A stretch of DNA of 34,098 nt, from assembly GCA_938041655.1 (NCBI GenBank), contig CALISW010000180.1:1-34098 (forward strand). The letters are read 5' to 3'. The stretch comes from an uncultured Thiotrichales bacterium (GTDB lineage: Bacteria > Pseudomonadota > Gammaproteobacteria > CAZUMV01). Positions 2,296 through 27,845 of the stretch are shown piece after piece. The notes under the pieces are model-generated. The model was not told where the DNA came from, did no database searches, and worked only from the letters and a program-made list of their open reading frames with translations. Numbering within the stretch: the first letter of the stretch is position 1; every line of letters begins with the position of its first letter. The position numbers were made by a program, and so were the translations under genes.

Positions 2296-2337
2296 TTATT
2301 TTTACTTTTTATTTTATATAGTACACGGAGAAATACG

Positions 2338-3936
2338 ATGGCCAACTACCACCAGGAAATAAGCAACGCGGCTGATGTTATAGCCAGTAACGGTTCAACA
2401 TGGGAAGCAATTTCACCCGAGAATGTGGCGCGTATGCGTTTACAAAACCGTTTTAAAACAGGATTGGATATTGCGCGTTATACCGCCGGTATCATGCGCG
2501 CCGATATGGCGGAATATGATAAAGATCCTTCAGCTTATACTCAGTCACTGGGTTGTTGGCATGGTTTTATCGGTCAGCAGAAAATGATCTCGGTTAAAAA
2601 GCACTTTGGTACCACCAAAGGGCGCTACCTGTATCTTTCTGGTTGGATGGTTGCAGCACTACGTTCAGAGTTTGGTCCATTGCCTGATCAGTCAATGCAT
2701 GAAAAGACTTCGGTGACAGACTTGATTGCGGAGCTGTATACCTTTCTAAAGCAGGCTGATGCACGCGAGTTGCGTCACTTGTTTGCGGATCTTGATGCAG
2801 CCAGAGAAGGTGGTGATGAAGTCGCGATCAAGGCGGCAGAAAAAAGTATTGATGGTTTTGAAACCCATGTGGTACCTATCGTTGCTGATATCGATGCCGG
2901 TTTTGGTAATGAAGAAGCTACTTACTTACTGGCCAAACAATTTATTGAGGCGGGTGCTTGCTGCATACAAATCGAAAACCAGGTATCTGATGCGAAACAG
3001 TGTGGCCATCAGGATGGTAAGGTGACAGTGCCTCATGAGGATTTCCTGAGCAAAATCAATGCAGTTCGTTATGCCTTTATGGAGCTGGGTGTTGATGACG
3101 GTTTAATCGTCGCCCGTACTGACTCCCTCGGTGCCGGCCTGACCCAGAAGATTCCAATTTCAACTGAGCCTGGTGACCTGGCTGACCAGTACCGCAACTT
3201 CATTGATGGTGATGAGCTGTCTGCTGAAGAAGCTGCCAACGCTGGTGATATTTTAATGTCGCAGAATGGCAAGTTGATCAAGCCGCATCGTTTACCGAAT
3301 GGTCTGATTCGTTTTAAGCCGGATACCGGTGTTGACCGTGTGGTACTTGATTGTATTACCTCACTGCAGAACGGTGCTGATCTGTTATGGATCGAAACCG
3401 AGAAGCCGCATATTGGTCAGATTGCAGAAATGGTGAATCGTGTGCGCGAAGTCATGCCTTCAGCCAAGCTGGTGTATAACAACAGCCCTTCATTTAACTG
3501 GACCCTGAACTTCAGGCAGCAAGTTTTTGACGCTTGGACTGAAGAGGGTAAAGACGTGAGTGGCTATGTTCGTGATCAGCTGATGAGTGTTGAATATGAT
3601 GATACTGAATTGTCAGTTGAAGCCGATGAGCGTATCAAGAGCTTCCAGGCAGATGCAGCGCGTGAGGCTGGAATTTTCCACCACTTGATTACTTTGCCTA
3701 CTTATCATACCGCCGCATTATCAACAGACAACCTGGCTAAAGGTTACTTTGGTGATGAAGGAATGCTAGCGTACGTGCAAGGTGTGCAGCGTAAGGAGAT
3801 TCGACAGTCACTTGATTGTGTCAAGCACCAGGATATGTCTGGCTCGAATATTGGAGATGATCACAAAGAATACTTCTCTGGTTCTCAGGCACTCAAAGCC
3901 GGTGGTGCTAAAAACACTATGAATCAATTTTCGTAA
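2338..3936 (+). CDS. aceA: Isocitrate lyase
   Basis: Cleaves isocitrate to glyoxylate and succinate, the first glyoxylate shunt step. The product is 532 residues, the longer form known from Pseudomonas, not the roughly 435-residue E. coli form. The catalytic signature appears as KQCGHQDGK, with Cys-Gly-His in the usual place, and the preceding VADIDAGFGNEEATY stretch supplies metal-binding acidic residues. The start ATG has a clear ribosome binding site (CACGGAGA). It follows glcB closely and ends before a strong hairpin terminator, so glcB-aceA looks like a self-contained two-gene unit. Acetyl-CoA released by the neighbouring catabolic island would be assimilated through it; that link is inference from proximity. 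Confidence 0.97.
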   Translation: MANYHQEISNAADVIASNGSTWEAISPENVARMRLQNRFKTGLDIARYTAGIMRADMAEYDKDPSAYTQSLGCWHGFIGQQKMISVKKHFGTTKGRYLYLSGWMVAALRSEFGPLPDQSMHEKTSVTDLIAELYTFLKQADARELRHLFADLDAAREGGDEVAIKAAEKSIDGFETHVVPIVADIDAGFGNEEATYLLAKQFIEAGACCIQIENQVSDAKQCGHQDGKVTVPHEDFLSKINAVRYAFMELGVDDGLIVARTDSLGAGLTQKIPISTEPGDLADQYRNFIDGDELSAEEAANAGDILMSQNGKLIKPHRLPNGLIRFKPDTGVDRVVLDCITSLQNGADLLWIETEKPHIGQIAEMVNRVREVMPSAKLVYNNSPSFNWTLNFRQQVFDAWTEEGKDVSGYVRDQLMSVEYDDTELSVEADERIKSFQADAAREAGIFHHLITLPTYHTAALSTDNLAKGYFGDEGMLAYVQGVQRKEIRQSLDCVKHQDMSGSNIGDDHKEYFSGSQALKAGGAKNTMNQFS

Positions 3937-9908: not shown

Positions 9909-11270
9909 ATGAGTGATGATGCGACAACCAATCAATATGTTATTAACCCTGATGCCCCCGCTGAATCTTTAGAAGCCAAGCAGCCTTGGGTCGATAATGG
10001 TGTGGATATCGTATCGCCAGATCGATATTACTCTAGTGAGTTCAAGTCTGAAGAGTGGAACAAGCTATGGCCGAAGGTCTGGTTAATTGCAGGTGTTGAA
10101 TCTGATCTGCCAGAATTAAATGACTATTTTGTTTTTGATGTTGGGCATGAATCCATCATTGTCAGCCACACTAAAGAAGGTATACAGGCTCACTATAACG
10201 TGTGTAGTCATCGTGGCAACCGTCTGGTGCGTGAGGAAAGGGGCAACAACAAACAGTTTACCTGTCCGTTTCATAGCTGGCGTTTTAGTAATCAAGGCGA
10301 ACTGAAGTTTATAACTGATCGTCATACTTTCAGAGAAGAGCTGGTCTGTGATAACCCTGGTCTGACGCCGGTGAATTGCGTGGTGCATGCCGGCATTATC
10401 TTTATCAACATGTCCGATAATCCACCAGATATAAAAGAGTACCTTGGTTTGCCAGAAGGTTACCTTGAGGCCTATCAGGTACATAAAATGAAGGTCGTGC
10501 GTCATCAGCGTGTTGAATGGGATGCCAATTGGAAAACAGGCATCGATGCGTTTTATGAAACCTACCATTTGCATGCGGTGCACCCGGAAACCGCTGGCGT
10601 AATGGGTGACCTGAATGTTCAGTATGATACTTTCGAAAATGGTGCCAGTCGCATGATAGTACCTATTGGCGTGCCTACCGTTCGTGCCCGCGATCAGGAT
10701 GCTATGAATGAGGGTCTGGACTGGATGCTGTCTACTGTGGGTATTGATCCGGCTACTTTCGAGGGAGGGGCGCAGGAAGTTCGTGCCGCAATACAAAAAG
10801 CCAAGCGCAAGAATGCTGCCGAGCAGGGTGTTGATTATTCCCAGCTGACCGATGGTCAACTAACCGATAGCTGGGCAACCGGTGTTTTTCCGAATGTGCA
10901 AATGGGTATGCACGCTGAGGCTGTGTTCTTGATGCGGTTCCTGCCACATGCGACTGACCCCGAGAAATTTTATTACGATACGATGACCTTGATGCACCCA
11001 ATCACTGACCCGAGTCATCAAGCGCCGGCCTGGATGGGTTTGCCGGAAGATACAGATCTCAGCGGTAAAACCAGAGAAAACATGGTGGAAATCCAGAGTG
11101 ACGATAATGAGGCATTAGGTATTGTACTGGCACAAGACTCCGAGCTTATTCCTGTGGTACAACAGGGGATACGGTCGCGTGGTTTCAAAGGACCAATTTG
11201 GGGAGAGCAAGAGCAGCGATTGAGGCATTTTCATGCGGAGCTTGATCGCTATCTCAACGACGAGAAGTAA
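9909..11270 (+). CDS. Rieske non-heme iron oxygenase, alpha subunit (1)
   Basis: Catalytic subunit of a ring-hydroxylating or related oxygenase that uses O2 and externally supplied electrons. The N-terminal Rieske [2Fe-2S] domain has CSHRGN (Cys99, His101) and CPFHSW (Cys119, His122). The mononuclear iron site is in the C-terminal domain at DAFYETYHLHAVH, with bridging Asp213 and ligands His220 and His225. At 453 residues it has the usual length. It is most similar within the window to Rieske 3: both share the LTDxQLTD and ATDPxK(F/M)Y(Y/F)D segments and the same spacing of ligands. No beta subunit, ferredoxin or reductase is present nearby. It has its own promoter and is divergent from the TonB receptor gene; it ends 3 bases from the convergent MaoC gene. 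Confidence 0.93.
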   Translation: MSDDATTNQYVINPDAPAESLEAKQPWVDNGVDIVSPDRYYSSEFKSEEWNKLWPKVWLIAGVESDLPELNDYFVFDVGHESIIVSHTKEGIQAHYNVCSHRGNRLVREERGNNKQFTCPFHSWRFSNQGELKFITDRHTFREELVCDNPGLTPVNCVVHAGIIFINMSDNPPDIKEYLGLPEGYLEAYQVHKMKVVRHQRVEWDANWKTGIDAFYETYHLHAVHPETAGVMGDLNVQYDTFENGASRMIVPIGVPTVRARDQDAMNEGLDWMLSTVGIDPATFEGGAQEVRAAIQKAKRKNAAEQGVDYSQLTDGQLTDSWATGVFPNVQMGMHAEAVFLMRFLPHATDPEKFYYDTMTLMHPITDPSHQAPAWMGLPEDTDLSGKTRENMVEIQSDDNEALGIVLAQDSELIPVVQQGIRSRGFKGPIWGEQEQRLRHFHAELDRYLNDEK

Positions 11271-11794: not shown

Positions 11795-11845
11795 TAGCAT
11801 TTTGTGTATGCTTTTTATATACAAATTCCTCTTGTGAGCACTGAT

Positions 11846-13492
11846 ATGTCGCGTGAAAAATATTCATTCTCTACCGATACATTAGGCGGCATGCTGCTGG
11901 AAATGAGTGCTCGTTTGCCAGATGCCGACGCACTGGTTTTCCCGGATCAAAAGCGAAGTTTCAGTCAGATCACCGAAGATGCAGTTAACAAGGCCCGCAG
12001 TTTGCAAGCACTGGGTGTGAAGCCCGGGGATCATGTTGGTATTTTATTGCCAACCTGCATGGACTTTCCCGAGGTTTTTTTTGCTGTGTCTCTTTGCGGT
12101 GCAATCGCTGTTCCGGTCAACACACGAAATCAGTATAGAGAAATTGCCTATCTGGTCGGGAACGCTGAACTGGTGTGCCTGTTCACCACCGATATCGTCG
12201 AAGATCACGTGCACTTTGCCGAACGAGTAACCAAGGCATTGCCCGGTTTGGAAAAACAGAAAGACACCAAGGCTCTATCTTTAAGTGACTATCCTGCACT
12301 CAAGTCACTGGTCTATCTGGGTAGCAGCGAAGCTCCCGGGTTTCTATCAGAAGCCGAGTTTGATGCTCTGGCCGAAACTTCAGATGAAGAGCGAGTCTAT
12401 CAATCTGCTGCCGAGGTAGATCCCGATTCACCTGGCTTGATGCTATACACCTCGGGAACTACTTCAAACCCCAAGGGGTGCCCGATCAACCATCGTTCAA
12501 TGCTGGATAATAGCCGTGCGCTGGCCGAACGATATGAGCTTAGCGGGTCTGATAAATTCTGGTCGCCTCTGCCGCTCTGTCATATTGCAGGAATACTACC
12601 GATGCTGGCAATATTTGCTGAAGGTGGTAGCTATCAAACTATGTCCTACTTTGATACCACCATTGCGCTCAAGATGCTGGCGGATAATAAGATAACGGCT
12701 GCTTACCCTTGCTTCGTGACCATAATTTCTGATCTGGTTAATCATCCGGAATTCCCGAATACAGATTTGAGTGCTATTCGGGTGATGAATAGCAACTTTG
12801 CAGTTCAGCCAAAAGAACTGGCAGAAAAAGTGGCGGCGGTTATGCCTAATGCTATTCAGGTGGGCACCTTTGGCATGACAGAAACCGCTGGTACCGTATG
12901 CACGAGCCGTCTGAGTGATCCACTCGAGACTCGTTTGACCAGGCTTGGTGTTCCGTTGAAAGGCTGGGAAGTCAAAATTATTGACGCTGAGTCGGGTAAA
13001 GAGGCGGCAACCGGTGAGCGTGGTGAAATTGCAGTGCGTGGCACTTCTGTATGTAACTGTTATTACAAAGATGAAGAGAAAACTGCCGAGTCATTCAAGG
13101 GCGGCTGGTTCTTTACTGGTGATGTAGGTTCGCTGGATGAGCAGGGGCAGATTATGTTCCATGGCCGTTTGAAAGATATGTTGAAGGTCGGTGGGGAAAA
13201 TGTTGCTGCTGCCGAGATCGAGGCGCATTTACAAACGCATCCGGCTGTGAAATTAGCACAAGTAGTTGGTGTGCCGGATGCGCGCATGGGCGAAGTCGCC
13301 GCAGCTTGTCTTGAATTACATGATGATCAGTCGGTATCATCGGATGAGATTATCGAGCATTGCAAAGGCGAGATTGCCAGTTTCAAAATTCCACGTTTTG
13401 TCAGTGTGGTTGCTGAGTGGCCTATGTCCACCAGTAAGATTCAAAAATTCAAGTTACGCGATCATGTCATTAGCGAACACAATTTAAGTTAA
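11846..13492 (+). CDS. Acyl-CoA ligase (AMP-binding, ANL superfamily)
   Basis: ATP-dependent activation of a carboxylic acid to its CoA thioester. Motifs in order are the phosphate-binding loop LMLYTSGTTSNPKG, the GTFGMTETAGT adenine-binding motif, GWFFTGDVG, the hinge GRLKDMLKVGGENV, and the catalytic Lys region STSKIQKFKLR at the C-terminus. The ORF track starts at GTG 11804, inside sequence just after the operator; GTG 11834 and ATG 11846 are alternatives. I chose the ATG (MSREKYSFSTDT) because homology-like sequence begins there and it leaves room for a promoter, but none of the three has a good ribosome binding site. Genes for an ABM-like protein and a PQQ dehydrogenase follow closely, so the three form an operon. 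Whether the substrate is aliphatic or aromatic is not clear. Confidence 0.9.
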   Translation: MSREKYSFSTDTLGGMLLEMSARLPDADALVFPDQKRSFSQITEDAVNKARSLQALGVKPGDHVGILLPTCMDFPEVFFAVSLCGAIAVPVNTRNQYREIAYLVGNAELVCLFTTDIVEDHVHFAERVTKALPGLEKQKDTKALSLSDYPALKSLVYLGSSEAPGFLSEAEFDALAETSDEERVYQSAAEVDPDSPGLMLYTSGTTSNPKGCPINHRSMLDNSRALAERYELSGSDKFWSPLPLCHIAGILPMLAIFAEGGSYQTMSYFDTTIALKMLADNKITAAYPCFVTIISDLVNHPEFPNTDLSAIRVMNSNFAVQPKELAEKVAAVMPNAIQVGTFGMTETAGTVCTSRLSDPLETRLTRLGVPLKGWEVKIIDAESGKEAATGERGEIAVRGTSVCNCYYKDEEKTAESFKGGWFFTGDVGSLDEQGQIMFHGRLKDMLKVGGENVAAAEIEAHLQTHPAVKLAQVVGVPDARMGEVAAACLELHDDQSVSSDEIIEHCKGEIASFKIPRFVSVVAEWPMSTSKIQKFKLRDHVISEHNLS

Positions 13493-13801: not shown

Positions 13802-15718
13802 ATGAAAAAGCTCACCGTTTATTGGGTAGTGTTTTTTTTGCTGCTTATGTCTGCCTGTCAAAAGCAGGAGCAGCAGGAAAAGGTGGTTGCTGCAGGCGAT
13901 GAGAATGTAGAGAGTAATACCATCTCCGGGAGTGAATCTGTAGCAGTAGCAACAATAGACGGTGAGGCTATTTATGCAAGCAATTGTGCGGTTTGCCATG
14001 ATGGTGGTATTGCAAAGGCGCCACACAAAACATTTCTTGGTCTGATGACGTCAAATACGATTTACAAATCGATGGACGAGGGTTTGATGCAACAGCAGTC
14101 CGCTATGCTCAGCGATGAGCAAAAGACAGCAGTCGCCGAGTATCTGGGTGGCCCTTTGGGGATGGCAAATGCCAAGCCTGATATGTGTGCAAAATCTGTG
14201 TTTGATCGTGAGCAGTTGCCATTGAGTAAAGACATGGGCTTTGACCTGAAAAAGACCCGTTTTCAACCAGCCAATGTATCAGGTCTGAGTAAGGATGATG
14301 TGCCCAAGTTGAAACTCAAGTGGGCATTTGGTTTTCCATCTGCGATCAGAGCGCGCTCGTTACCATTATTAGCTGGCGGGTTTTTGTATGTTGGTAGCCA
14401 TGACGGCACCGTCTATGCGCTGGACCCCGACACTGCCTGCGTCCACTGGACCTTCGCAGCAGCTGCCGAAGTGCGTACAGCCTTAACCACCAATGACTGG
14501 AGTGTCGGGGAGGCTGATCAAACACCAATGCTCTATTTTGGTGACATCATTGCCAATGTGTATGCGGTTAATGCAGCGACGGGTGAGCTAGTCTGGAAAA
14601 CCAAAGTAGATGATCACGATAATGCGACGGTCACAGGTTCACCTGTATTTCATAATGATCGTCTTTATGTGCCGGTGTCTTCTTTGGAAGTGGCTAGTGC
14701 CGCTGATAACAAGTATGAGTGTTGTACCTTCCGTGGTTCAATGTTGAGTCTTGACGCCAATAATGGTGACCAGCTATGGAAGACTTACACTATTGAAGAA
14801 GAGTCAAAGCCTACCTATAAAAGTACTGTTGGGACGCAATTCCATGGCCCTTCAGGCGCGCCAATCTGGAATAGTCCCACCATCGATGTTAAACGTAATG
14901 TTCTTTATGCCGGTACCGGCGAAAATTACTCATCACCCGCAGATGGTGCCAGCGATGCGATTTATGCTTTTAACCTCGATACCGGCAAGGTTGTATGGCG
15001 TCAGCAGGTAACGGCAAATGATGCCTGGAACATGAATTGTGAGATGGAAGTGAAAGAAGGTTGTCCGGAAGAAGATGGACCTGATTATGATTTTGCCGCA
15101 TCGCCGATGTTGATTGATTTGCCCGATGACAAGCAGATAGTGGTTGCCGGACAAAAATCTGGTTGGCTGTATGGTATGGACCCTGATCAAGAGGGGGCTA
15201 TTCTCTGGAAAAATCGAGTTGGTCGTGGTGGTGTGCAAGGTGGTATTCACTTTGGTATTGCGGCAGAAGGAACGCGTGTTTATGTTCCGGTAACTGATTT
15301 TGATGGGCCGCCACCATTTGGTGACGATTATGGCGACGCAAAAGTGCGGCCTGGTATTTACGCCGTAGATGCAAGTAATGGTGAGTTCCTCTGGAAAGCG
15401 CCGCATCCGACTGATGTTTGTAACGGGCGAGATTTTTGTGATCCGGGTGTGTCAGCTGCAGTAACAGCTATTCCCGGTGTTGTGTTTTCGGGTGGCATGG
15501 ACGGCGTGATGCGCGCCCACGACGGTGCCAGCGGTGAAGTGATATGGAAAGTGAATACCGCGGTTGATTACGAAACAGTCAACGGGGTAAAAGCACAAGG
15601 TGGTTCATTCGGTGGTCCGGGTCCAACAATAATTGATGGCACCATGTATGTGAACAGCGGCTACGGCATGTACTTCCATATGCCGGGAAATGTGTTACTT
15701 GCTTTTTCTGTTGATTGA
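13802..15718 (+). CDS. Cytochrome c-PQQ lipoprotein dehydrogenase (polyvinyl-alcohol dehydrogenase-like)
   Basis: Predicted periplasm-facing lipoprotein alcohol dehydrogenase of 638 residues. The N-terminus MKKLTVYWVVFFLLLMSAC is a signal peptide with a lipobox and lipidated Cys19. A small cytochrome c domain follows with CAVCH (Cys62, Cys65, His66). The rest is a PQQ-type beta-propeller with repeated blocks such as GSHDGTVYALDPDT, VYAVNAATGELVWK and IYAFNLDTGKVVWR. Heme first, then propeller, is the order found in polyvinyl-alcohol dehydrogenases; most quinohemoprotein alcohol dehydrogenases place heme at the C-terminus. It would oxidise a secondary or primary alcohol and pass electrons from PQQ to heme. 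No PQQ biosynthesis genes are visible. A GAGG ribosome binding site overlaps the end of the ABM gene. Confidence 0.88.
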   Translation: MKKLTVYWVVFFLLLMSACQKQEQQEKVVAAGDENVESNTISGSESVAVATIDGEAIYASNCAVCHDGGIAKAPHKTFLGLMTSNTIYKSMDEGLMQQQSAMLSDEQKTAVAEYLGGPLGMANAKPDMCAKSVFDREQLPLSKDMGFDLKKTRFQPANVSGLSKDDVPKLKLKWAFGFPSAIRARSLPLLAGGFLYVGSHDGTVYALDPDTACVHWTFAAAAEVRTALTTNDWSVGEADQTPMLYFGDIIANVYAVNAATGELVWKTKVDDHDNATVTGSPVFHNDRLYVPVSSLEVASAADNKYECCTFRGSMLSLDANNGDQLWKTYTIEEESKPTYKSTVGTQFHGPSGAPIWNSPTIDVKRNVLYAGTGENYSSPADGASDAIYAFNLDTGKVVWRQQVTANDAWNMNCEMEVKEGCPEEDGPDYDFAASPMLIDLPDDKQIVVAGQKSGWLYGMDPDQEGAILWKNRVGRGGVQGGIHFGIAAEGTRVYVPVTDFDGPPPFGDDYGDAKVRPGIYAVDASNGEFLWKAPHPTDVCNGRDFCDPGVSAAVTAIPGVVFSGGMDGVMRAHDGASGEVIWKVNTAVDYETVNGVKAQGGSFGGPGPTIIDGTMYVNSGYGMYFHMPGNVLLAFSVD

Positions 15719-17334: not shown

Positions 17335-18231
17335 TTAGTCTTTATAAATATTTTTAAAGCGGTCGGGAACGCCGCCTGGCCAGGCGTTACCCCAGTGTTG
17401 CATGCCACCATCTATTGTCAGTTCTGCACCCGTTATAAATTTACCCGCATTTGAACCTAGATAAATGACGCCCTCAGCTACATCGCAGACATCACCAGTT
17501 TTCAGCATCGGGTTTGAGTTCATGAAATTGTTTTGAACCTCTTCGCTGTAAACCTCAAGGCCATTGGATGCAATCGAACCAGGGGCGAGACAATTCACTC
17601 TGATATTATGTTCGGCCCATTCGGTTGCGACTGAACGCGTCAATGCAAGCACGCCGGATCTTGCGGCAGCGGTGTGTGCGACTTGTGGCATGCCACGACG
17701 CACGTTGGCGATAATGTTGACGATGTTTCCAGCCTGTTCATGCTTGCGCCATAGCTGTGCCGCTCGTTGCATCATGTACCAGGTGCCATTGAGATTTAAA
17801 TCAATCACGGCATTCCAGCCATTAATTGAAAAGTCTATCGCTGGTTGTGGAAACTGGCCGCCACTGTTGTTAACCAGAATATCTATGCCGCCATGGTCAT
17901 CCCAAATAGCTTGCATCATCTCGGCAACTTTTTCCGGCTCTCTGATATTGACAGTATAACTATGCACTGTTTTCTTCAGATGCTTTTTAACTCCATTGAT
18001 AGTGCCGTCGAGGTTGTCCTGATTACGACTGCATATGATGACGGTGGCACCGCAGCGCGCCATCAGATAACTAATGCCTCTGCCTATGCCGGTACCGCCA
18101 CCTGAGACCAATACGGTTTTTCCTGCAAGGCAATTTTCTTTGTAAACGGTAGGATAGGTGGCCAGCTCTTCGTCGTTAAGATCCCAGCGTTGACTGATAC
18201 CAGCGTCTTTTGAATTTGAATCAGTCGCCAT
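17335..18231 (-). CDS. SDR3, 2,4-dienoyl-/trans-2-enoyl-CoA reductase-like
   Basis: A 298-residue SDR with cofactor loop SGGGTGIG at about residue 43 and NNSGGQFPQP in place of NNAG. The usual YxxxK is absent: the aligned segment reads VAHTAAARSGVLALTR. That pattern resembles the peroxisomal enoyl-CoA/2,4-dienoyl-CoA reductase subgroup, where the active site is rearranged, and RVNCLAPGSI follows as in that group. I therefore call an NADPH-dependent reductase of a 2-enoyl- or 2,4-dienoyl-CoA; an exact substrate is not claimed. Its start overlaps the thiolase stop by 11 bases, making it the last gene of the Rieske 2 operon, before the strong terminator. It would remove a conjugated double bond before or after thiolytic cleavage (inference). 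Confidence 0.83.
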   Translation of the reverse strand: MATDSNSKDAGISQRWDLNDEELATYPTVYKENCLAGKTVLVSGGGTGIGRGISYLMARCGATVIICSRNQDNLDGTINGVKKHLKKTVHSYTVNIREPEKVAEMMQAIWDDHGGIDILVNNSGGQFPQPAIDFSINGWNAVIDLNLNGTWYMMQRAAQLWRKHEQAGNIVNIIANVRRGMPQVAHTAAARSGVLALTRSVATEWAEHNIRVNCLAPGSIASNGLEVYSEEVQNNFMNSNPMLKTGDVCDVAEGVIYLGSNAGKFITGAELTIDGGMQHWGNAWPGGVPDRFKNIYKD

Positions 18232-19429
18232 GATATTGTCCTACTATAGAGACGGTACATACGTTTCGGTTGGGTAAGCCGCCCAGGTTATGCGTCAAAC
18301 CCAGTTGTGGATCTTTAAGTTGTCGTTTGTCAGCACGTCCGTGCATTTGTAAGTACAGCTCATAGATCATGCGTAAGCCTGTTGCGCCGATAGGGTGGCC
18401 AAAACATTTAAGGCCACCATCAATTTGACAAGGTAGTTCACCATCGCTGTCGAATTTCCCATCCAGCACATCGTGTACCGCTCTACCTTGTTCGGATACT
18501 TGCAGATCTTCCATGGTGACGATTTCTGTCACTGAAAAACAGTCGTGTACTTCAAATAGATCCAGCTCTTTTGCCGGGTCACTAATACCAGCTTCTGCGT
18601 AAGCATTTTTTGCTGCAATACGTGCGGTCAGGGCATAACTGCCATCCCAGCTTTTGTGTGCCAGTTCGACGCCGTTACTGGCAGATAACTGCAGGGCTTT
18701 AATGCTGACCAGAGTACCCGTTTTGCCAAGATGTGCTGCCATCTCTGGCGTGGTCACGATGGCACAGGCAGCACCATCACTGACACCACAGCAGTCATAC
18801 AGACCTAGTGGATAAGAGATCATTGGCGCTTGCATGGCTTGTTCTTTTTCTATGGTCTTTTGCAAATGTGCTTTTGGGTTTAGTGAGCCATTTTGATGAC
18901 TCTTCCATGAAACATGCGCCATTGCTTCCTTAAGGGTATCCATATCCAGTTTGTTTCTGCTGGCATAGGCGCTGGCAAATTGTGCGAATGAACCCGGTGC
19001 AGTGCTGCCCGGTAACCACAAGTCTTCAAAAGTACCTTTGGTTCTCTCGGGTAGACCGGCATAACCTGTATCTTTTAATTTCTCGACGCCCATTGCGAGC
19101 GCAATATCGCATGCGCCGGCGGCAACTGCGTAGGTCGCTGCGCGCAGCGACTCGGTGCCGGTGGCGCAAAGGTTTTCTACACGCGTGACTGGTATGTTGG
19201 GTAGGCGCAAGGCTTGCGACATGGGGATGGCGGATTTACCGACATTTTGTTCATCAAAAAATACGCCAAGCCAGCCTGCTTCTATTTGTTCTTTTTCAAT
19301 GCCGGCATCAGTAATGCATTCATTAAATGCTTCGAGCATGAGTTCTTCGGGTCCGGCGTCCCAGCGTTCACCGAACTTGCTGCAACCCATACCAATAATG
19401 GCAACTTTATCTTTAATGCCCCTACTCAT
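18221..19429 (-). CDS. SCP2-type thiolase / acyltransferase
   Basis: A 402-residue thiolase-fold protein of the SCP-x/Ltp2/PhlC type rather than a classical degradative thiolase. The nucleophile is Cys88 in VENLCATGTESL. His295 in FEVHDCFSVTE and His345 in CFGHPIGATG complete the likely active site, with HNLGG near the C-terminus. Members either cleave 3-ketoacyl-CoA, act as retro-aldolases on sterol side chains, or transfer acetyl groups to carbon as PhlC does; the last two types work with a DUF35 partner. Here a DUF35 domain is fused to the immediately upstream gene, and the two genes overlap by ATGA, so a physical complex is likely. It is the third gene of a four-gene operon. Confidence 0.9.
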   Translation of the reverse strand: MSRGIKDKVAIIGMGCSKFGERWDAGPEELMLEAFNECITDAGIEKEQIEAGWLGVFFDEQNVGKSAIPMSQALRLPNIPVTRVENLCATGTESLRAATYAVAAGACDIALAMGVEKLKDTGYAGLPERTKGTFEDLWLPGSTAPGSFAQFASAYASRNKLDMDTLKEAMAHVSWKSHQNGSLNPKAHLQKTIEKEQAMQAPMISYPLGLYDCCGVSDGAACAIVTTPEMAAHLGKTGTLVSIKALQLSASNGVELAHKSWDGSYALTARIAAKNAYAEAGISDPAKELDLFEVHDCFSVTEIVTMEDLQVSEQGRAVHDVLDGKFDSDGELPCQIDGGLKCFGHPIGATGLRMIYELYLQMHGRADKRQLKDPQLGLTHNLGGLPNRNVCTVSIVGQYHGD

Positions 19430-20868
19430 GATTCACCTGCTGGTGCTGCTTTCCAGAAATAACGACGGAAGCCTCTCAATTGATCAATGTCTTTTATTCT
19501 AAAGCGGGGCGTTACTTGTACACCTACTGCCAGTTCACCTACTTCAAAATCAGTGAATTCCATCATCACGTTGGCACCATTATCAAATTGGACGTTGCCG
19601 TATTTCAAAGGTGGGTTGGTACTGTGAGCCAGCCAGTCTTCGGTAAAGGATTTTACTTGCGCACTTTCATTTTGCAGGCAGTATTCCTGTTGTGTTTCAT
19701 AGGCACCACAGTCAGGGTTGACGCAAAGTTTCGCCATCGGGAATTGAATAGTTTCGCATGCCTCACAACGACCTCCGATGAAGGTGTTAATGCTTCTGCG
19801 TTTGCGATAGTAAACCGACATGGCGGTGCGGTTGTCGCGCTCAGCGCGCATTCCCCAGTCCATATCTAGTAGTTGTTTGTTGGAGAGATAGCGGGTGTAA
19901 CTCTCTACTGTGGTGCCATCACTGATGGACTGCATCTTTGATTGTTGTTGTTTTAATTTGGCGGTGGTTTTCAGCAAGATGGCGTCTGCACCCTGGCCAA
20001 AACCAATTAACAGAATAGTTTGATCCGGCTTGGCGCTGAGTAATATCTGGTGCAGCATCACTAGTGGGTGAGCGCAGCCACAGATACCTGTGATATTGAT
20101 CAGGTTGTCTGCCAGTTTGGCGTTATCCAATCCTGCTTTTTTAGCCAGTGCGCCGGCGGTTCTGGTATTGCTTAATGGTAGCACCAGATGGTCAATGGTG
20201 TCCGCAGCTACTTTTGCTTTGTCGAGCAACTTTTTAATCACCTTGGGTAGTATCTGGTTGATGCCTTCATCGCGAACCCAGCGTTCTTCGTATTGATAGT
20301 TGTGGGGCTGTTGCGGGGTACGATAGTGATCGACTAAATCAATTGAGATGGACTCAGCGGCAATAAAGGCCGCTATTGGATTTGATCCGGTGACCACCGC
20401 AGCTGCGCCATCTCCATCAATCATTTCAGCGGGGTTGCCTGCTTTTGGAATACAGGCATCTGAAGCAATTAACAGGGATTGAGTGTTGCTAGCATCTTGC
20501 TGTAGTTGTCGGAGCAGGGCAGAAGTGCCAGCACGCATTGATGAGCTGACATCAAGTGTTGTGACCGAGTCATTCAGGTTCACTGCTTCACCGATTAAGG
20601 TGGCATGTTGTCGGTCAATGAATGGTGCGCTGGTTGAGGCAAAAGTTAGTGATTGTATTTCGTCATTGTCGTTTTGTAACAAGCAATCATTGCCAGCACT
20701 AACTGCCATAGTTATCGGGTCTTCATCGCTGCTGCAAAAAGCCCGCTGGCCTTTGGCACGAGCTGCTAGTCCGGGGTTAACCCAGTTGTGAGCCTGGGCG
20801 ATAGCGGTACGCTGTAATCTCAACCGAGGTATTGATATGGCACTGGCTGTGATTCCAAAATCAGTCAT
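19426..20868 (-). CDS. HMG-CoA synthase-like protein fused to DUF35 (Zn-ribbon/OB-fold)
   Basis: A 480-residue two-domain protein. Residues 1 to about 320 follow the HMG-CoA synthase/KAS III fold: GITASAISIPRLRL start, DGDGAAAVV, GFGQGADAILLK. Residues about 350-475 are DUF35, with a zinc ribbon (Cys368, Cys371, Cys382, Cys387) and an OB fold (VKSFTEDWLAH, VMMEFTDFEVGELAVG). The position of the catalytic Cys, FACKAGT in archaeal enzymes, reads SSMRAGT here with Met111. The usual active-site His region reads LPLSNTRTAG, so this half looks catalytically inactive. In archaea thiolase, HMG-CoA synthase and DUF35 form one complex, and in PhlACB an inactive thiolase-fold subunit pairs with an active PhlC. 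A structural or channelling subunit for the adjacent thiolase is my best inference. Its start overlaps the Rieske 2 stop (TAATG). Confidence 0.85.
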   Translation of the reverse strand: MTDFGITASAISIPRLRLQRTAIAQAHNWVNPGLAARAKGQRAFCSSDEDPITMAVSAGNDCLLQNDNDEIQSLTFASTSAPFIDRQHATLIGEAVNLNDSVTTLDVSSSMRAGTSALLRQLQQDASNTQSLLIASDACIPKAGNPAEMIDGDGAAAVVTGSNPIAAFIAAESISIDLVDHYRTPQQPHNYQYEERWVRDEGINQILPKVIKKLLDKAKVAADTIDHLVLPLSNTRTAGALAKKAGLDNAKLADNLINITGICGCAHPLVMLHQILLSAKPDQTILLIGFGQGADAILLKTTAKLKQQQSKMQSISDGTTVESYTRYLSNKQLLDMDWGMRAERDNRTAMSVYYRKRRSINTFIGGRCEACETIQFPMAKLCVNPDCGAYETQQEYCLQNESAQVKSFTEDWLAHSTNPPLKYGNVQFDNGANVMMEFTDFEVGELAVGVQVTPRFRIKDIDQLRGFRRYFWKAAPAGES

Positions 20869-22082
20869 TATTCTTCAATATAATCCGAAAGTAGTTCTGG
20901 CAATCGTAACGCGGTATCGATGTTGTCTTTGCCGATGCGTCGGTCGAGTTCTTCATGCCAATAGTAGATGCGTCGTTCCTGATAGTTTAGCTTCATGCCC
21001 TTTAGGGATTTAGCGCCGATAGATTTTTGTATCTCTTCAGCAAACTGAGTATCTTCTTCTAGAATGCGTTCAAAGTTTTTAATGCGCTTTACCCAGGTTT
21101 CAGTCAGCGGTTCCGTTTTGGCTTCCGGTCCAAACCAGATGACCTCAATGTACATGCTGTCAGTTCCCTTGGGCCAGAATAGCAAGAAAGGCACACCAGC
21201 AGGATCTATTGGGGCGACTAAATTCGGGAAGAAGTTATAAGAGCAGTTATTGGTTAAGGGGATTTCTGTAATGGTTTCAATCTGCTTCATGTCGACAGTA
21301 CCAGGGTCGACCCAGTCGTCGCGTCTCCATGGGGTAATCATGCGCGAGTGGCCATTTTTAAACAGACTGATATGGCAGCCACGGTGGTCGAGGAATCTGT
21401 CGACGGTGTTTTTGTGGATTGAGGGCAGGTGATAGACCTCAAGAAAGGCATCCATCAATACTTTAACATTGCAGTTCACGGTAAAGCCGTCACGATGAAT
21501 GAAGTGCAGGTTTTCAGGTTGCATCTGGGCAAAGTCATCAGCCAGAGGACCGAGATGTTCCAGTAACGGTTCGGCATTCAGATCTTCATTAACGAATATC
21601 CAGTTGCCCAACTGCTCTACGCGCACAGCATTCAGGGAATGGCATTTGGTGTCGAGCCCGACAAAATCACGTTTGTCTCTAAGGCGAATCAGATCCCCTT
21701 GCAGATTATAAGTCCAACCGTGGTAACCACAGACGAGACTACGTTTAACCGAGCCGGCTGCATCGCGCACAATCGGTGCGCCACGATGTCGGCAAGTATT
21801 ATAGAAAGCGTTGATCTGATCATTCTCATCTCTGATCAGAACGATTGGGGCACTACCATGTTCCCATAGCATGTAATCGCCCGTACTGGGGATCTCATCT
21901 GTGTGTCCGGCGAACAGCCATGCTTTTTGCCACATTAGTGCTTGTTCGGCATCCAGATACTCGGGGTCGTTATATCTGCCCTTGGGAACTTCGGGAAACA
22001 TTGGAAAGTCTGCAGGGGGCTCTTTGCGCTGTTTTTCGTAGGCGATGCCATCACGAATTTTATTGCTGGATTCCTGATCCAT
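20868..22082 (-). CDS. Rieske non-heme iron oxygenase, alpha subunit (2)
   Basis: A 404-residue Rieske oxygenase catalytic subunit. The [2Fe-2S] ligands are in CRHRGA (Cys97, His99) and CGYHGW (Cys118, His121). The iron-site segment is DAFLEVYHLPSIH with Asp211, His218 and His223. It is more distant from Rieske 1 and 3 than those are from each other, and shorter by about 50 residues, so it probably acts on a different intermediate. The ATG has an AGGGG ribosome binding site. It is the first gene of the coupled operon with the HMGCS-like/DUF35 protein, thiolase and SDR3, controlled from operator 5. A short inverted repeat (22110-22126) lies in its leader. No dedicated electron-transfer partner is visible. 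Confidence 0.92.
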   Translation of the reverse strand: MDQESSNKIRDGIAYEKQRKEPPADFPMFPEVPKGRYNDPEYLDAEQALMWQKAWLFAGHTDEIPSTGDYMLWEHGSAPIVLIRDENDQINAFYNTCRHRGAPIVRDAAGSVKRSLVCGYHGWTYNLQGDLIRLRDKRDFVGLDTKCHSLNAVRVEQLGNWIFVNEDLNAEPLLEHLGPLADDFAQMQPENLHFIHRDGFTVNCNVKVLMDAFLEVYHLPSIHKNTVDRFLDHRGCHISLFKNGHSRMITPWRRDDWVDPGTVDMKQIETITEIPLTNNCSYNFFPNLVAPIDPAGVPFLLFWPKGTDSMYIEVIWFGPEAKTEPLTETWVKRIKNFERILEEDTQFAEEIQKSIGAKSLKGMKLNYQERRIYYWHEELDRRIGKDNIDTALRLPELLSDYIEE

Positions 22083-22227: not shown

Positions 22228-23235
22228 CTAAGCCAGTGTTTTGCGTATTGCTGCCTCGATGTGAGCAGGGCCGGGAACATAGGCGCGTTCCAGTTCTCTG
22301 GCAAAAGGTACCGGGGTATGTGGCGCAGAGACTTGTTCTATCGGTGCTTTGAGCGAAGCAAAGCCCTTACTAGCAACCATGGCTGCAATATCAGCCGTTA
22401 AGCCACAGCGTGGAGGTGATTCATCTACCACTACCAGCCTGCCAGTTGCCTCAACACTTTCCAGAATGGTTTCTTCATCCAGAGGAGAGCTTGAACGAGG
22501 ATCTACCAAATCGCAGGTAATGCCTTCCTCTGCCAGCTTATCGATAACTTTAATAGCAAATTTAACGCTGCGACTGAAGGCAACTACAGTCACATCATCA
22601 CCTTCGCGAGGCATATCAGCTTCACCGATAGGTACCGTGTAAGGCTCATCCGGAACTTCGCACTTGTCGTTATAAAGCCCTTTATGTTCGAAGAACAACA
22701 CCGGATCATCATCTCGAATTGCACTGATCAACAAGCCTTTAGCATCATAGGCGTTGGACGGCATCACAACTTTGAGCCCTGGCACCGAGGTCATCATTTG
22801 GTACATGGTTTGTGAATGTTGTGCGGCCATATTCATACCGGCTCCTGTCGGTAACCTAACCACTACCGGGCAGGTGGTTTTACCACCAAACATATATCGG
22901 AATTTTGCCAGCTGATTAAAAATCTGGTCCATGCTCACGCCAATGAAATCGGCAAACATCAGTTCGGCGATAGGGCGCATGCCTGCCAGTGCAGCACCGT
23001 TGGCGGCGCCAATTATGGCTGATTCGGAGATGGGGGTATCAATGACTCGATCCACCCCGAATTTATTCACCAGGTCTTTGGTGACGCCAAAGATACCGCC
23101 GGCGGCATCAACTACTCCAGCGCTACCTGCTTGTCCACCGGAAACATCCTCGCCGAGAATGAAGACGCGTTCGTCTCGTTCGAACTCCTGATGCAGTGCT
23201 TCGTTTAAAGCATCTCGATAGGTTTTAATAGGCAC
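22228..23235 (-). CDS. TPP-dependent 2-oxoacid/acetoin dehydrogenase E1, beta subunit
   Basis: A 335-residue E1 beta (transketolase pyrimidine plus C-terminal domain) of the pyruvate/acetoin dehydrogenase type. It opens YRDALNEALHQEFERDERVFILGEDV and continues with DTPISESAIIGAANGAALAG, RLPTGAGMNMAAQHSQ and a C-terminal domain with VVDESPPRCGLTADIAA. It pairs with E1 alpha, whose stop lies 13 bases upstream. The start is GTG with an AGAAGGAAG ribosome binding site. Together they would decarboxylate a 2-oxo acid or cleave an acetoin-like compound using thiamine diphosphate. No E2 lipoyl acyltransferase or E3 follows, so partners must come from elsewhere, or the enzyme works alone. Confidence 0.92.
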   Translation of the reverse strand: MPIKTYRDALNEALHQEFERDERVFILGEDVSGGQAGSAGVVDAAGGIFGVTKDLVNKFGVDRVIDTPISESAIIGAANGAALAGMRPIAELMFADFIGVSMDQIFNQLAKFRYMFGGKTTCPVVVRLPTGAGMNMAAQHSQTMYQMMTSVPGLKVVMPSNAYDAKGLLISAIRDDDPVLFFEHKGLYNDKCEVPDEPYTVPIGEADMPREGDDVTVVAFSRSVKFAIKVIDKLAEEGITCDLVDPRSSSPLDEETILESVEATGRLVVVDESPPRCGLTADIAAMVASKGFASLKAPIEQVSAPHTPVPFARELERAYVPGPAHIEAAIRKTLA

Positions 23236-23248
23236 AGTCTACTTCCTT

Positions 23249-24208
23249 CTAATAATTGATATAAACATCTTCAAGTACATCAGCGGCGACCGGACGTGGT
23301 GCGGCGCGAGCCGCAGTGACAGCGTCATCGATCAATTTCATCACTTCTTCATCGGCGCTGTTAAGTTCAGCTTCCGAGAGTGATTGATCAGCGATAACTT
23401 TTGCTCTAAAGATTTTCAGGCAGTCCTGATTTTCGCGTATGTCTTTGAGTTCTTCTTTGGAGCGATAATTTTGCGGGTCACCAACATAGTGTCCAAAGTA
23501 GCGAGGGCATTCTGCGTAGATGGCAGAAGGACCATTGCCAGCATTGGCGTGTTCAATTGCTTTTTGGGTGGCGTCATATACTGAAAAGAAGTCAGCGCCA
23601 TCGGCAGTAAACACTGGCATACCAAACCCTTCGGTACGCTTGAGTAAGTCGCCACCTACTGCGTAATCTGCACCGGTGTGTTCGCCATATCCATTATTCT
23701 CAAATACAAACACTGATGGTACCTGGAGTACTACTGCGAGATTCATTGCCTCGAAGACTGTGCCTTGATTGGAGCTGCCGTCGCCACTAAATGATACTGC
23801 TACATTTTTATCGCCACGTTGTTTGATTGCTATCGCAGCACCCACTGCGAGTGGTGGTCCTCCACCGACGATGCCATTGGCGCCGAGTATGCCTCGATCA
23901 AAGTCGGCGATGTGCATAGAACCACCTTTACCTTTACACAGGCCTTCGGTGGAGCCGTAAATCTCTTTCATCATGTCTATTACGTCACCACCCTTGGCGA
24001 TGCAATGGCCATGGCCGCGATGGGTGCTGACGATATAGTCCTTGTCATCAAGCGACTCACAGACCCCAACAGCAACAGCTTCCTGGCCTGCATACAAGTG
24101 AGTAAAACCGGCTATTTCACCCGTCGCAATTTCCACATTCAGGCGTTCTTCAAATTCCCGAATGGTTTTGAGTTGAGAGTAGGCTCTCAGGAGTTTATCT
24201 TTGTCCAT
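23249..24208 (-). CDS. TPP-dependent 2-oxoacid/acetoin dehydrogenase E1, alpha subunit
   Basis: A 319-residue E1 alpha of the AcoA/PdhA type. The TPP-binding motif runs from GDGSSNQGTVFEAMNLA to ENNGYGEHT. The family segments FTHLYAGQEAVAVG, STHRGHGHCIAKGGD and GKGGSMHI are all present. The length fits acetoin dehydrogenase E1 alpha (about 325 residues) better than the longer mitochondrial-type PDH. Final products would be an acyl group bound to lipoyl or an aldehyde. It is the first gene of a two-gene unit reading from operator 6; the ribosome binding site is weak (GGAA, distant). Context suggests it processes a C2-C5 keto fragment of the island's substrate (inference). Confidence 0.92.
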   Translation of the reverse strand: MDKDKLLRAYSQLKTIREFEERLNVEIATGEIAGFTHLYAGQEAVAVGVCESLDDKDYIVSTHRGHGHCIAKGGDVIDMMKEIYGSTEGLCKGKGGSMHIADFDRGILGANGIVGGGPPLAVGAAIAIKQRGDKNVAVSFSGDGSSNQGTVFEAMNLAVVLQVPSVFVFENNGYGEHTGADYAVGGDLLKRTEGFGMPVFTADGADFFSVYDATQKAIEHANAGNGPSAIYAECPRYFGHYVGDPQNYRSKEELKDIRENQDCLKIFRAKVIADQSLSEAELNSADEEVMKLIDDAVTAARAAPRPVAADVLEDVYINY

Positions 24209-25212: not shown

Positions 25213-25215
25213 TTG

Positions 25216-26589
25216 ATGGCTAAAAAAACATACAAAGATATCCCGCGTGTTAGTGAGGCGGTTGATGGTGGTACACCGGTAGATCATGTGCCGCCAGGTG
25301 ATCTCGGTTACGAGCGGATACCGAAAGAAAAGTATATTTCTGCTGAATATTACGAGCAGGAATGGCAGCAGATGTGGTCAAAAGTCTGGTTGCTAGGCTG
25401 TCTCGAAAGAGATCTGGAAGAAGCCGGTAGTTATGTCTGTACCGAAATAGGTCGTGAGTCGGTAATTCTAGTGCGACAACAATCAGGTGAGATCAAGGCG
25501 TTTTTCAATGTTTGTCCGCATCGAGGGAATCGTCTGGTTGAATCGGGCATGGGTGAAACCGAAGAACTGTTTACCTGTGGCTATCATGGCTGGCAATACA
25601 AGCTCGATGGACGCTTTAACCGCATACCCAATGCCGAGCTTTTCCCTCAAGGCAAGCCTTGTGACGGCCTGTCTGAGCTGCCCTGTGAAACGTGGAACAA
25701 CTTTGTCTGGTTTAGTCTCGATAAAAATGCAATTCCATTTGATGAGTACATGGCTCCGCTAAAAAAACATTTTGAGCCCTATCATTTTGATCGTATGGTC
25801 ATGACGCGTGACGTCACTATGGAATGGCCATGCAACTGGAAAACCTCAGTCGATGCATTTAACGAAACCTATCATGTTGCTGCTACGCATCCGCAACTGA
25901 AATGGTATCTGGATGACATGGACATCCAGATCGATTGCTATGATCGTCACTCGCGTTATCTGGTGCCATTTGGAGTTACCAGTCCTCATATTGACCGGGT
26001 TCCTGAAGTACCGCCACCGCTCAAGTTTATGCTCACCGAGGCTGGTCTTGATCCGGCGGAGTGGTCGGGGCATGTTGATGGTATTCGTGAAGCCGTACAA
26101 AAACAGTTGCGCGAGCACGCTGGTGCTGAAGGGCGTGATTATTCGGATTTAAACGATGACCAGCTCACAGATGATTACAATTATCTTGTTTTTCCGAATG
26201 TGACGTTTAATACGCATGCGGATCATTTGATGTTGTTTCGCCATCGTCCACATGCAACAGATCCCAACAAAATGTATTTTGATGTATGGATGTTGGAGTA
26301 CATTGTTGATGAAGATGAAATGCCTGAGTATCGTCCGAGGCATAAATTCCACGAGTACGGCAGTAAATCGCTGGGTATGGTGATCGACCAGGATGGTTAT
26401 AACTTGCCACGTGTGCAACAAGGAATGAACAGCGCCGCCTATGACGGCTTGTGGTTGGGTGATCTTGAGGTTCGAATTCGACATTTTCACAAGACGCTTG
26501 ATGATTATGTGTCGAGCGATATCGAGGTTACTGAAGTAGAAGATGAGCCAACCGGTTTTCGGTCGTTGATTCAGAAGCTGGTTACGTGA
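25216..26589 (+). CDS. Rieske non-heme iron oxygenase, alpha subunit (3)
   Basis: A 457-residue Rieske oxygenase catalytic subunit. Counting from the ATG at 25216, the [2Fe-2S] ligands are Cys100/His102 (CPHRGN) and Cys121/His124 (CGYHGW). The iron site is DAFNETYHVAATH with Asp213, His220 and His225, the same positions as in Rieske 1. The ORF track starts at TTG 25213, directly after the SDR4 stop; the ATG one codon later is the likelier start, probably translationally coupled. Rieske 1 and 3 look like paralogues specialised for related substrates. C-terminal acidic extension DIEVTEVEDEPTG is not shared with Rieske 1. No beta subunit or electron-transfer gene follows. Confidence 0.92.
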   Translation: MAKKTYKDIPRVSEAVDGGTPVDHVPPGDLGYERIPKEKYISAEYYEQEWQQMWSKVWLLGCLERDLEEAGSYVCTEIGRESVILVRQQSGEIKAFFNVCPHRGNRLVESGMGETEELFTCGYHGWQYKLDGRFNRIPNAELFPQGKPCDGLSELPCETWNNFVWFSLDKNAIPFDEYMAPLKKHFEPYHFDRMVMTRDVTMEWPCNWKTSVDAFNETYHVAATHPQLKWYLDDMDIQIDCYDRHSRYLVPFGVTSPHIDRVPEVPPPLKFMLTEAGLDPAEWSGHVDGIREAVQKQLREHAGAEGRDYSDLNDDQLTDDYNYLVFPNVTFNTHADHLMLFRHRPHATDPNKMYFDVWMLEYIVDEDEMPEYRPRHKFHEYGSKSLGMVIDQDGYNLPRVQQGMNSAAYDGLWLGDLEVRIRHFHKTLDDYVSSDIEVTEVEDEPTGFRSLIQKLVT

Positions 26590-26633: not shown

Positions 26634-27845
26634 GTGGACTATTCAGATATTTATAATCGCTTTGCCAAAGGTGATTCGATCTATATTCCTGGTAATTCAG
26701 GTGAGCCAAGAGCTTTTGTTGAAGCCTTGGCGGCCGTTTCAGATTTGCCAGAAATAAGTGTTACTCATACCTTTATACCCGGTGTTAATACAGCGCCGTT
26801 AGCGACTAGTGATAATAAAATTATCGAGCATGCTTTTTTCCCCAGATCAGGAAAACAGCTTAATTCAGATCGAATACTGTTTAACCGAGACTCGTGGATG
26901 GGTGTTTTTCGTTATCTGGAGCAACAGCAATTTGATTGGTTGGTGATGCAGCTTTCTCCACCGAATAAAGATGGCATGTGTTCGTTGGGTACCAGTATTG
27001 AATTTTTGCCCTTACTCTTGCAGCGCAGTAATAAAGTGATTGGCATTATTAATCATCAGGTTCCGTTTATTACCAATGCGCCTGCTATCAAGCTCGATGA
27101 GCTTGCCTGCAGCATTGAATGTGATGAGCCACTGGTCAGTGTTGGCTCTCCAAGATCGGATCAGGCCTCTAGCAGAATCGCTGAGCACTTGACTACACTG
27201 ATAGATCGAGATTCGGTTTTACAAACGGGAATCGGAAATATCCCTGATATTTTTTTAAGTAGTCTCACGCAGCATACCGGCCTCAAATTTCAATCAGGCA
27301 TGTTGTCCGACGGATTTCTAGAACTTCATGATGCCGGGGCGCTGGCATCAGATTTTGATCACAGCTGCACTTTATGCCTGGGCTCCAATAAATTTTACCA
27401 GCGCCTGCCGGACCTTAATAATTTATCGTTAGTGCCGGTTAATATCAGTCACGCGTTACCATCAGAAGATACTACAGAAAATTTCCTGGCGATAAATAGC
27501 GCCTTGCAAGTTGACTCTAATGGACGAGCGAACCTTGAGTTTCTTGGCGACCGGCGCGTCAGCAACGTAGGCGGCGCTCTTGATTTTTCCCAGCGTGCCA
27601 ACAGGGGTGAGCATTCACTCAATGTGATTGCTTTGCCGGCAACAGCTGGTAATGGAAAATATTCAAGAATTGTTTCACAGCTTTCCATGCCTGAACATGA
27701 CTCTCTTGCAGGTACGCACGTTGATCGAGTAGTGACCGAATACGGTATTGCTGACCTGAGTGGAAAAACCAAGCGCCAGCGTGCAATGGCATTGATAGAG
27801 GTGGCAGCGCCAAAATTCAGGCCAGGATTGGAAAAAGCACTCTGA
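26634..27845 (+). CDS. Acetyl-CoA hydrolase/CoA-transferase-family protein
   Basis: A 403-residue member of the acetyl-CoA hydrolase/4-hydroxybutyrate CoA-transferase family. It has DWLVMQLSPPNKDGMCSLG in the N-domain, the LQTGIGNIPD loop, and the C-terminal ATAGNGKYSRIVSQL and DRVVTEYGIADLSGKT blocks. In characterised members the catalytic Glu lies in an HTEM(x)SDG-type motif. Here the same place reads QSGMLSDG, so the Glu is missing and the usual covalent glutamyl-CoA mechanism is doubtful. It starts with GTG. It is last in the SDR4-Rieske 3 operon, 44 bases after the oxygenase. A CoA-recycling role or hydrolase fits the pathway, but a divergent activity or a non-catalytic protein must be considered. 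Confidence 0.82.
   Translation: MDYSDIYNRFAKGDSIYIPGNSGEPRAFVEALAAVSDLPEISVTHTFIPGVNTAPLATSDNKIIEHAFFPRSGKQLNSDRILFNRDSWMGVFRYLEQQQFDWLVMQLSPPNKDGMCSLGTSIEFLPLLLQRSNKVIGIINHQVPFITNAPAIKLDELACSIECDEPLVSVGSPRSDQASSRIAEHLTTLIDRDSVLQTGIGNIPDIFLSSLTQHTGLKFQSGMLSDGFLELHDAGALASDFDHSCTLCLGSNKFYQRLPDLNNLSLVPVNISHALPSEDTTENFLAINSALQVDSNGRANLEFLGDRRVSNVGGALDFSQRANRGEHSLNVIALPATAGNGKYSRIVSQLSMPEHDSLAGTHVDRVVTEYGIADLSGKTKRQRAMALIEVAAPKFRPGLEKAL

Follow-up and report, generated by a model that had tools for sequence, protein, structure and literature searches.

We analysed a stretch of 34,098 nucleotides from an uncultured Thiotrichales bacterium (contig CALISW010000180.1; hereafter the window), and concentrated on two adjacent genes, one encoding a hydroxymethylglutaryl-CoA (HMG-CoA) synthase-like domain fused to a DUF35 module (FUS) and the other encoding a thiolase (THI). 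An initial annotation of this DNA had described the two open reading frames, their overlap, and their position between a Rieske oxygenase gene and a gene for a short-chain dehydrogenase/reductase (SDR), and all of these were found as it placed them. The four genes abut or overlap throughout: the Rieske–FUS junction reads TAATG, FUS and THI share a 4-base junction of the ATGA type, and THI overlaps the SDR gene by 11 bases. They form a translationally compact unit with the following features:

20868..22082, minus strand: alpha subunit of a Rieske oxygenase, opening the overlapping set of four genes; also a neighbour of the pair in 11 further loci
19426..20868, minus strand: FUS, 480 amino acids; inactive HMG-CoA synthase/PhlA-like domain plus DUF35 (zinc ribbon and oligonucleotide/oligosaccharide-binding [OB] fold)
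19909..20868, minus strand: N-terminal HMG-CoA synthase/KASIII-fold domain of FUS (about residues 1–320), catalytically dead as judged from its replaced residues; fold match to PhlA (5m3k) and HMG-CoA synthase (6esq)
20536..20538, minus strand: codon of FUS Met111, at the position of the HMG-CoA synthase nucleophile Cys (profile alignment to Cys114 of 6esq_I)
19429..19797, minus strand: DUF35 module of FUS (about residues 358–480), C368-x2-C371...C382-x4-C387, with an OB fold ending in YFWK; zf-ChsH2 match, profile match to 6esq_E and PhlB
18221..19429, minus strand: THI, 402 amino acids, SCP2-type thiolase of family NF004810/PRK06157 (662.6 bits; cut-off 403)
19166..19168, minus strand: THI nucleophile Cys88 (ENLCATG), invariant in 65/65 sequences
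18536..18547, minus strand: THI HDCF motif (residues 295–298), invariant in 65/65; absent from PhlC/MucC-like and aldolase homologues
18392..18400, minus strand: THI GHP motif (residues 344–346), invariant in 65/65
17335..18231, minus strand: enoyl-CoA-reductase-type SDR, closest among solved structures to 1yxm (2e-47), a peroxisomal trans-2-enoyl-CoA reductase; same neighbour in 9 other loci

FUS matches the archaeal-type HMG-CoA synthase model NF003274 with an E-value of 2.3e-39, but its 135 bits fall short of the curated cut-off of 244, so that by this measure it is not an HMG-CoA synthase; it also matches ACP_syn_III_C (1.5e-8) and zf-ChsH2/DUF35 (2.3e-4, slightly under the cut-off). Residues were compared in a profile of 77 aligned sequences, with chain I of the archaeal HMG-CoA synthase structure 6ESQ as reference. 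None of the catalytic Glu, Cys, His, and Asn residues is present in FUS, in which Thr79 aligns with Glu82, Met111 with the nucleophile Cys114, Pro231 with the His, and Ile262 with the Asn. The segments SSMRAGT and LPLSNTRTAG, previously pointed out as the remnants of the Cys site and the His region, do lie at those places, and the proposed loss of catalytic residues extends to all four positions. The loss concerns the whole family and is not peculiar to the window genome: position 111 is occupied by Gln in 56 of the 77 sequences, Leu in 9, Arg in 8, Met in 2, and Ser in 2, and never by Cys, position 231 is Pro in 66, and the His and Asn are replaced in nearly all. A check for another Cys, suggested along with the original proposal, turned up Cys263 and Cys265 just after the former Asn position; because these are present in only 9/77 and 2/77 sequences, respectively, they do not represent a conserved replacement nucleophile. 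The C-terminal module, on the other hand, is a DUF35 protein with its OB fold and all four zinc cysteines (C368, C371, C382, and C387), which are kept in 77/77 sequences.

The best solved relatives of the 77-sequence profile are PhlA (3.4e-53 and 1.6e-51), archaeal HMG-CoA synthase (6ESQ_I, 2.5e-43), and MucA (9VBO_A), with 6ESQ_E and PhlB for the DUF35 part. An AlphaFold2 model of FUS (predicted local distance difference test [pLDDT] 92.6, predicted template modelling score [pTM] 0.93) gave the same picture, its top solved folds being PhlA (5MG5, TM score 0.84 by target) and archaeal HMG-CoA synthase (6ESQ, 0.87–0.88), with MucA also among the nearest. These fold and profile matches support the three-part parallel drawn earlier with the archaeal thiolase/HMG-CoA synthase/DUF35 complex and with PhlACB.

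Between the window and a sister genome, the nonsynonymous rate (dN) is 0.128 in the dead domain and 0.026 in the thiolase, that is, about five times faster in the former, with a ratio to the synonymous rate (dS) well below 1, dS being saturated. With this reservation as to dS, the dead domain appears to be retained under purifying selection. We rejected the idea of a decaying pseudogene on these grounds, and also on the open frame in the aligned loci and the joint retention with the thiolase. Selection on the domain would also fit a changed activity of its own, for example a decarboxylation like that of KS-Q domains, in which Gln replaces the Cys, and the Gln found at the nucleophile position in 56/77 sequences recalls that arrangement. 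The window protein, however, has Met there and others Leu, Arg, or Ser, and the His and Asn used in decarboxylation are replaced in nearly all, with Pro231 in most. Moreover, in PhlACB, whose PhlA subunit has Gly115 and Cys83 where HMG-CoA synthase has Cys and Glu, only residues of PhlC touch the substrate (PMC6392133). We thus consider an independent activity of the domain quite improbable.

The arrangement is not peculiar to this locus and belongs to a large family. Among 274 genomes of the window's class, FUS (E-value at most 1e-20) and THI (E-value at most 1e-60) occur in the same 8 and nowhere else in the set, and their copy numbers match across these 8 when the FUS of the sister genome, split over two contigs, is counted once. 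A wider scan of one genome per species yielded at least 558 related loci. Among the 84 loci, window included, from which the fusion was recovered, 77 have THI as the next gene downstream. The exceptions are mostly explained by contig ends or by the calling of start codons; in one locus (L099) the two genes lie 1.8 kb apart, and another (L028) has no thiolase. By this distribution, FUS and THI form an obligate pair. The contig of L028 is assigned to Candidatus Kuenenia, and its fusion is nearly identical to that of L034, a Rhizobium metagenome-assembled genome, so that it is probably misbinned. No relatives were found in viral contigs.

THI passes the score cut-off of SCP2-type thiolases and has their complete Cys/HDCF/GHP motif set. 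In an alignment of 65 sequences, Cys88, His295 and Cys297 (both in HDCF), and His345 (in GHP) are each invariant, as is the His380–Asn381 pair, which bears out the original statement that the thiolase keeps Cys88 and two histidines. The three motifs are likewise kept in 9/9 further plasmid-borne members, among them distant ones of Rhodococcus and Novosphingobium. The solved structures most closely related to THI are the acetyl-CoA acetyltransferase 7YVY (3.7e-56), the archaeal acetoacetyl-CoA thiolase 6esq_A (1.8e-48), and the SCP2-thiolase 6hsj (7e-43), with PhlC far behind (9e-20). In SCP2 thiolases, the Cys/HDCF/GHP residues serve thiolytic cleavage (PMC12329534).

The pair shares its part list, a dead HMG-CoA synthase-like subunit, DUF35, and a thiolase-fold subunit with Cys, with PhlACB (PpATase of Pseudomonas protegens, PDB 5M3K/5MG5) and MucABC (PDB 9VBO/9VBT, for which we found no publication in the literature), except that the first two parts are fused in FUS and are separate proteins in those complexes. 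Such a likeness, together with the place of PhlA and MucA among the structures that the dead domain matches best in fold and in sequence and the absence of the catalytic Cys and Glu from PhlA as well (PMC6392133), would suggest a C-acyltransferase, in which Cys88 takes an acyl group and hands it to a carbon nucleophile without CoA, as in the CoA-independent acyl transfer of these antibiotic biosynthesis systems. The thiolase partner argues otherwise. In a Priestia PhlC-like protein from a PhlACB-like operon and an L. plantarum MucC-like protein, on which we judged this point, HDCF is replaced by LYDMG or LYDQG and GHP by GHV or nothing, whereas THI and all 65 aligned sequences keep both motifs and lack the LYDxG site. 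In a quick tree (SH-aLRT supports only), the fusions form a clade separate from PhlA/MucA (SH-aLRT 97 and 99) and from archaeal HMG-CoA synthase, so that FUS does not group with PhlA/MucA, and PhlA/MucA-type loci adjoin nonribosomal peptide synthetase genes whereas FUS–THI loci adjoin degradation genes. An acyltransferase is therefore an unlikely alternative. As for the dead site itself, shared loss and parallel loss would both be compatible with the tree, in which the Rieske-linked loci fall on scattered forks of poor support and the FUS of the window is at the end of a long branch.

The Rieske gene directly upstream of the pair in the window and in 11 other loci, and the Rieske alpha/beta genes beside the pair in Rhodococcus opacus PD630 and Variovorax SRS16, are what one would expect of a retro-aldolase: the oxygenase would hydroxylate an aryl-acyl-CoA, and the complex would split an acyl-CoA off the 3-hydroxy intermediate, which is how the ipf cluster (CoA ligase, Rieske oxygenase, thiolase-like protein, and DUF35) works (PMC9195938). 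The aldolases Ltp2-ChsH2 and Sal-Shy, which act on steroid side chains, and IpfDE resemble the pair in having a thiolase-fold subunit bound, or presumed bound, to DUF35 in a degradative setting (with a Rieske oxygenase for IpfDE). They differ in the absence of a nucleophile Cys, of GHP, and of any HMG-CoA synthase-like domain, in YDxF/Y instead of HDCF, and in their retro-aldol chemistry. IpfD, from the degradation of ibuprofen, and an Ltp2-like protein found in Novosphingobium sp. ES2-1 both show YDAF and lack Cys88 as well as GHP, and CtSal has Gly at the Cys position (PMC12329534). THI does not belong to this group, and the Rieske-adjacent pairs, those of PD630 and SRS16 included, keep Cys/HDCF/GHP, which makes an aldol cleavage about as improbable as acyl transfer. 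Both were rejected on the thiolase motifs: of the chemistries first considered for the complex, retro-Claisen cleavage is supported by the complete SCP2 motifs, whereas acylation and retro-aldol cleavage are disfavoured by motifs that the corresponding homologues lack. More generally, the comparison of motifs divides the three chemistries, with Cys/HDCF/GHP for thiolases, LYDxG for acyltransferases, and YDxF for aldolases, a rule by which members may be sorted.

In several sulfate reducers of the Desulfobacteraceae type, the fusion is itself extended by an SDR resembling the 3-hydroxyacyl-CoA dehydrogenase of MFE-2 (L069:9995-12721, L042:1155-3524, and L098:7254-9316); the L069 protein reads HMG-CoA synthase-like–DUF35–SDR–SCP2 over 909 amino acids, with the thiolase next to it, and that of L042 reads HMG-CoA synthase-like–DUF35–SDR. 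Because this puts the presumed producer of the 3-oxo group into one polypeptide with the dead synthase, thiolysis is favoured. Genes for an acyl-CoA dehydrogenase, a MaoC/MFE-2-type hydratase or dehydrogenase, or an enoyl-CoA hydratase were found in 38 of the 59 long-flank loci. In Novosphingobium sp. ES2-1, the pair is plasmid-borne and lies inside an edc-like (estrogen degradation) cluster, with a fusion whose dead site reads DIAHSLRAGA beside a thiolase with Cys, HDCF, and GHP. Given the sulfate-reducer fusions, the beta-oxidation genes, and the edc-like pair, we favour, with a probability of about 0.7, a single catabolic 3-oxoacyl-CoA thiolase complex working in the thiolytic (retro-Claisen) direction and built on a PhlA-like scaffold that is itself catalytically dead. 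Members of the family most likely release acetyl-CoA, or a unit like it, from 3-keto intermediates of catabolic pathways. Both the catalysis in the thiolase and the degradative setting, as originally suggested, are supported.

In such a complex, the DUF35 module would link the thiolase with the dead domain, in the part that PhlB plays between PhlA and PhlC, and the dead domain and DUF35 may together help to shape the cleft for CoA and substrate. The chemistry would be confined to the thiolase, with residue roles taken from SCP2 thiolases: Cys88, activated by His345, would attack the 3-oxo carbon of the 3-oxoacyl-CoA, Cys297/His295 of HDCF would protonate the leaving acetyl-CoA (or propionyl-CoA) enolate, and a second CoA would remove the shortened acyl group from Cys88. 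In the window, the complex would serve an oxygenase-dependent degradation along with the Rieske oxygenase, an acyl-CoA ligase, a MaoC hydratase, and the enoyl-CoA-reductase-type SDR. A benzoylsuccinyl-CoA thiolase, BbsAB (PDB 7PXP), is also a catabolic thiolase with a DUF35 subunit; it differs in having no HMG-CoA synthase-like domain, and THI reaches 122 bits with the BbsB model, whose cut-off is 750.

Several points weigh against thiolysis by such a complex. About one-third of the long-flank loci have no recognized core beta-oxidation gene, and no acyl-CoA dehydrogenase was seen among the window genes examined. The binding of FUS to THI is something we infer, and the THI model has only moderate confidence near the active-site loops (pLDDT about 45). 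Finally, the motifs do not fix the direction of the reaction, as archaeal acetoacetyl-CoA thiolases with similar sites work synthetically. A condensing acetoacetyl-CoA thiolase complex feeding another product would agree with this biosynthetic archaeal counterpart (PMC6392133) and with the NCBIfam name of the THI family, "acetyl-CoA acetyltransferase." The archaeal complex (6ESQ) indeed has three components, a closely related thiolase with matching motifs, and the same HMG-CoA synthase fold, but its synthase is active (Cys114 and Glu82), is separate from DUF35, and makes HMG-CoA. No protein of the host genome, which is 85% complete, exceeded the curated cut-off for HMG-CoA synthase, the clusters hold oxygenases, ligases, and beta-oxidation enzymes, and the fusion to 3-hydroxyacyl-CoA dehydrogenase fits a degradative order, so that a biosynthetic role is very doubtful.

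Eleven other loci, among them those of Eilatimonas milleporae, Marinicaulis, Niveispirillum lacus, and the PS1 clade, show the Rieske–FUS–THI–SDR order in full or for the most part, and it was also found on a plasmid of N. cyanobacteriorum. Frequent companions of these loci are an acyl-CoA ligase, a CoA-transferase, a second Rieske oxygenase, a small quinol-monooxygenase-type protein, and a TonB receptor. The corresponding region of the window is a degradation island, with further features as follows:

9909-11270, 20868-22082, and 25213-26589: alpha subunits of three different Rieske oxygenases, all inside 17 kb
7296-9695: TonB receptor
11804-13492: acyl-CoA ligase
13802-15718: pyrroloquinoline quinone (PQQ)-type dehydrogenase, which, like the two preceding genes, accompanies SDRs in the island

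Just upstream of the Rieske gene and in the same direction, positions 22228-24208 encode alpha and beta E1 subunits of the 2-oxoacid/acetoin dehydrogenase type, beside which no E2 or E3 was seen; E1-type homologues also lie near the pair in L055 and L059. A 403-amino-acid protein of the CoA-transferase/hydrolase type is encoded at 26634-27845 (only its C-terminal domain is matched by Pfam), and its family is found directly downstream of the pair in Azoarcus, Castellaniella, and a betaproteobacterium, and near the pair in Haliea. At the left edge of the window (85-3936), beside the island, are open reading frames that on inspection resemble malate synthase G and isocitrate lyase, as would be expected if the pathway yields acetyl-CoA. 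The plasmid clusters of Variovorax SRS16 (L116) and R. opacus PD630 (L117) comprise Rieske alpha/beta genes, the pair, enoyl-CoA hydratases, and an acyl-CoA dehydrogenase, plus a CoA ligase in PD630, and possibly represent unassigned pathways for aromatic or alicyclic acids. In the SRS16 fusion, most of the zinc-ribbon cysteines are gone as well.

The full-text literature yielded no characterized fusion of HMG-CoA synthase and DUF35 with a thiolase beyond one gene of the estradiol edc operon of N. tardaugens. There, the authors left a "HMG-CoA synthase" (EGO55_13555) beside a thiolase (EGO55_13550) unassigned, as they could make no sense of a condensing step in that pathway (PMC7793797). Based on its annotation, the adjacency of the two genes, and the sequences of the ES2-1 homologues, this gene appears to be a member of the FUS–THI family. 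Compared with the window, the edc pair is distant (29% and 43% identity), has no Rieske gene, and belongs to a steroid pathway.

The three-part architecture itself was already known, and the FUS–THI family is broader than the initial annotation could see. In many degradation operons, genes labelled "HMG-CoA synthase," "OB-fold domain-containing protein," or "3-oxoacyl-ACP synthase III C-terminal domain" have confused pathway assignment, and they now gain a testable role as the noncatalytic half of a thiolase. The dead-synthase architecture, so far known from antibiotic acyltransferases, thereby finds a place in the degradation of bulky compounds, steroids among them. More tentatively, a large and so far unrecognized family of bacterial catabolic thiolases, with at least 558 loci within a single genome set, may obligately use a dead HMG-CoA synthase–DUF35 protein as part of the enzyme. 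Its pseudo-active-site cavity would serve as a substrate chamber or second site for bulky steroid, terpenoid, or aromatic 3-oxoacyl-CoAs, and the orphan "HMG-CoA synthase" genes in degradation operons would thus be accounted for. The finding is of value mainly because it proposes a solution, open to testing, for a puzzle that had been stated for steroid degradation.

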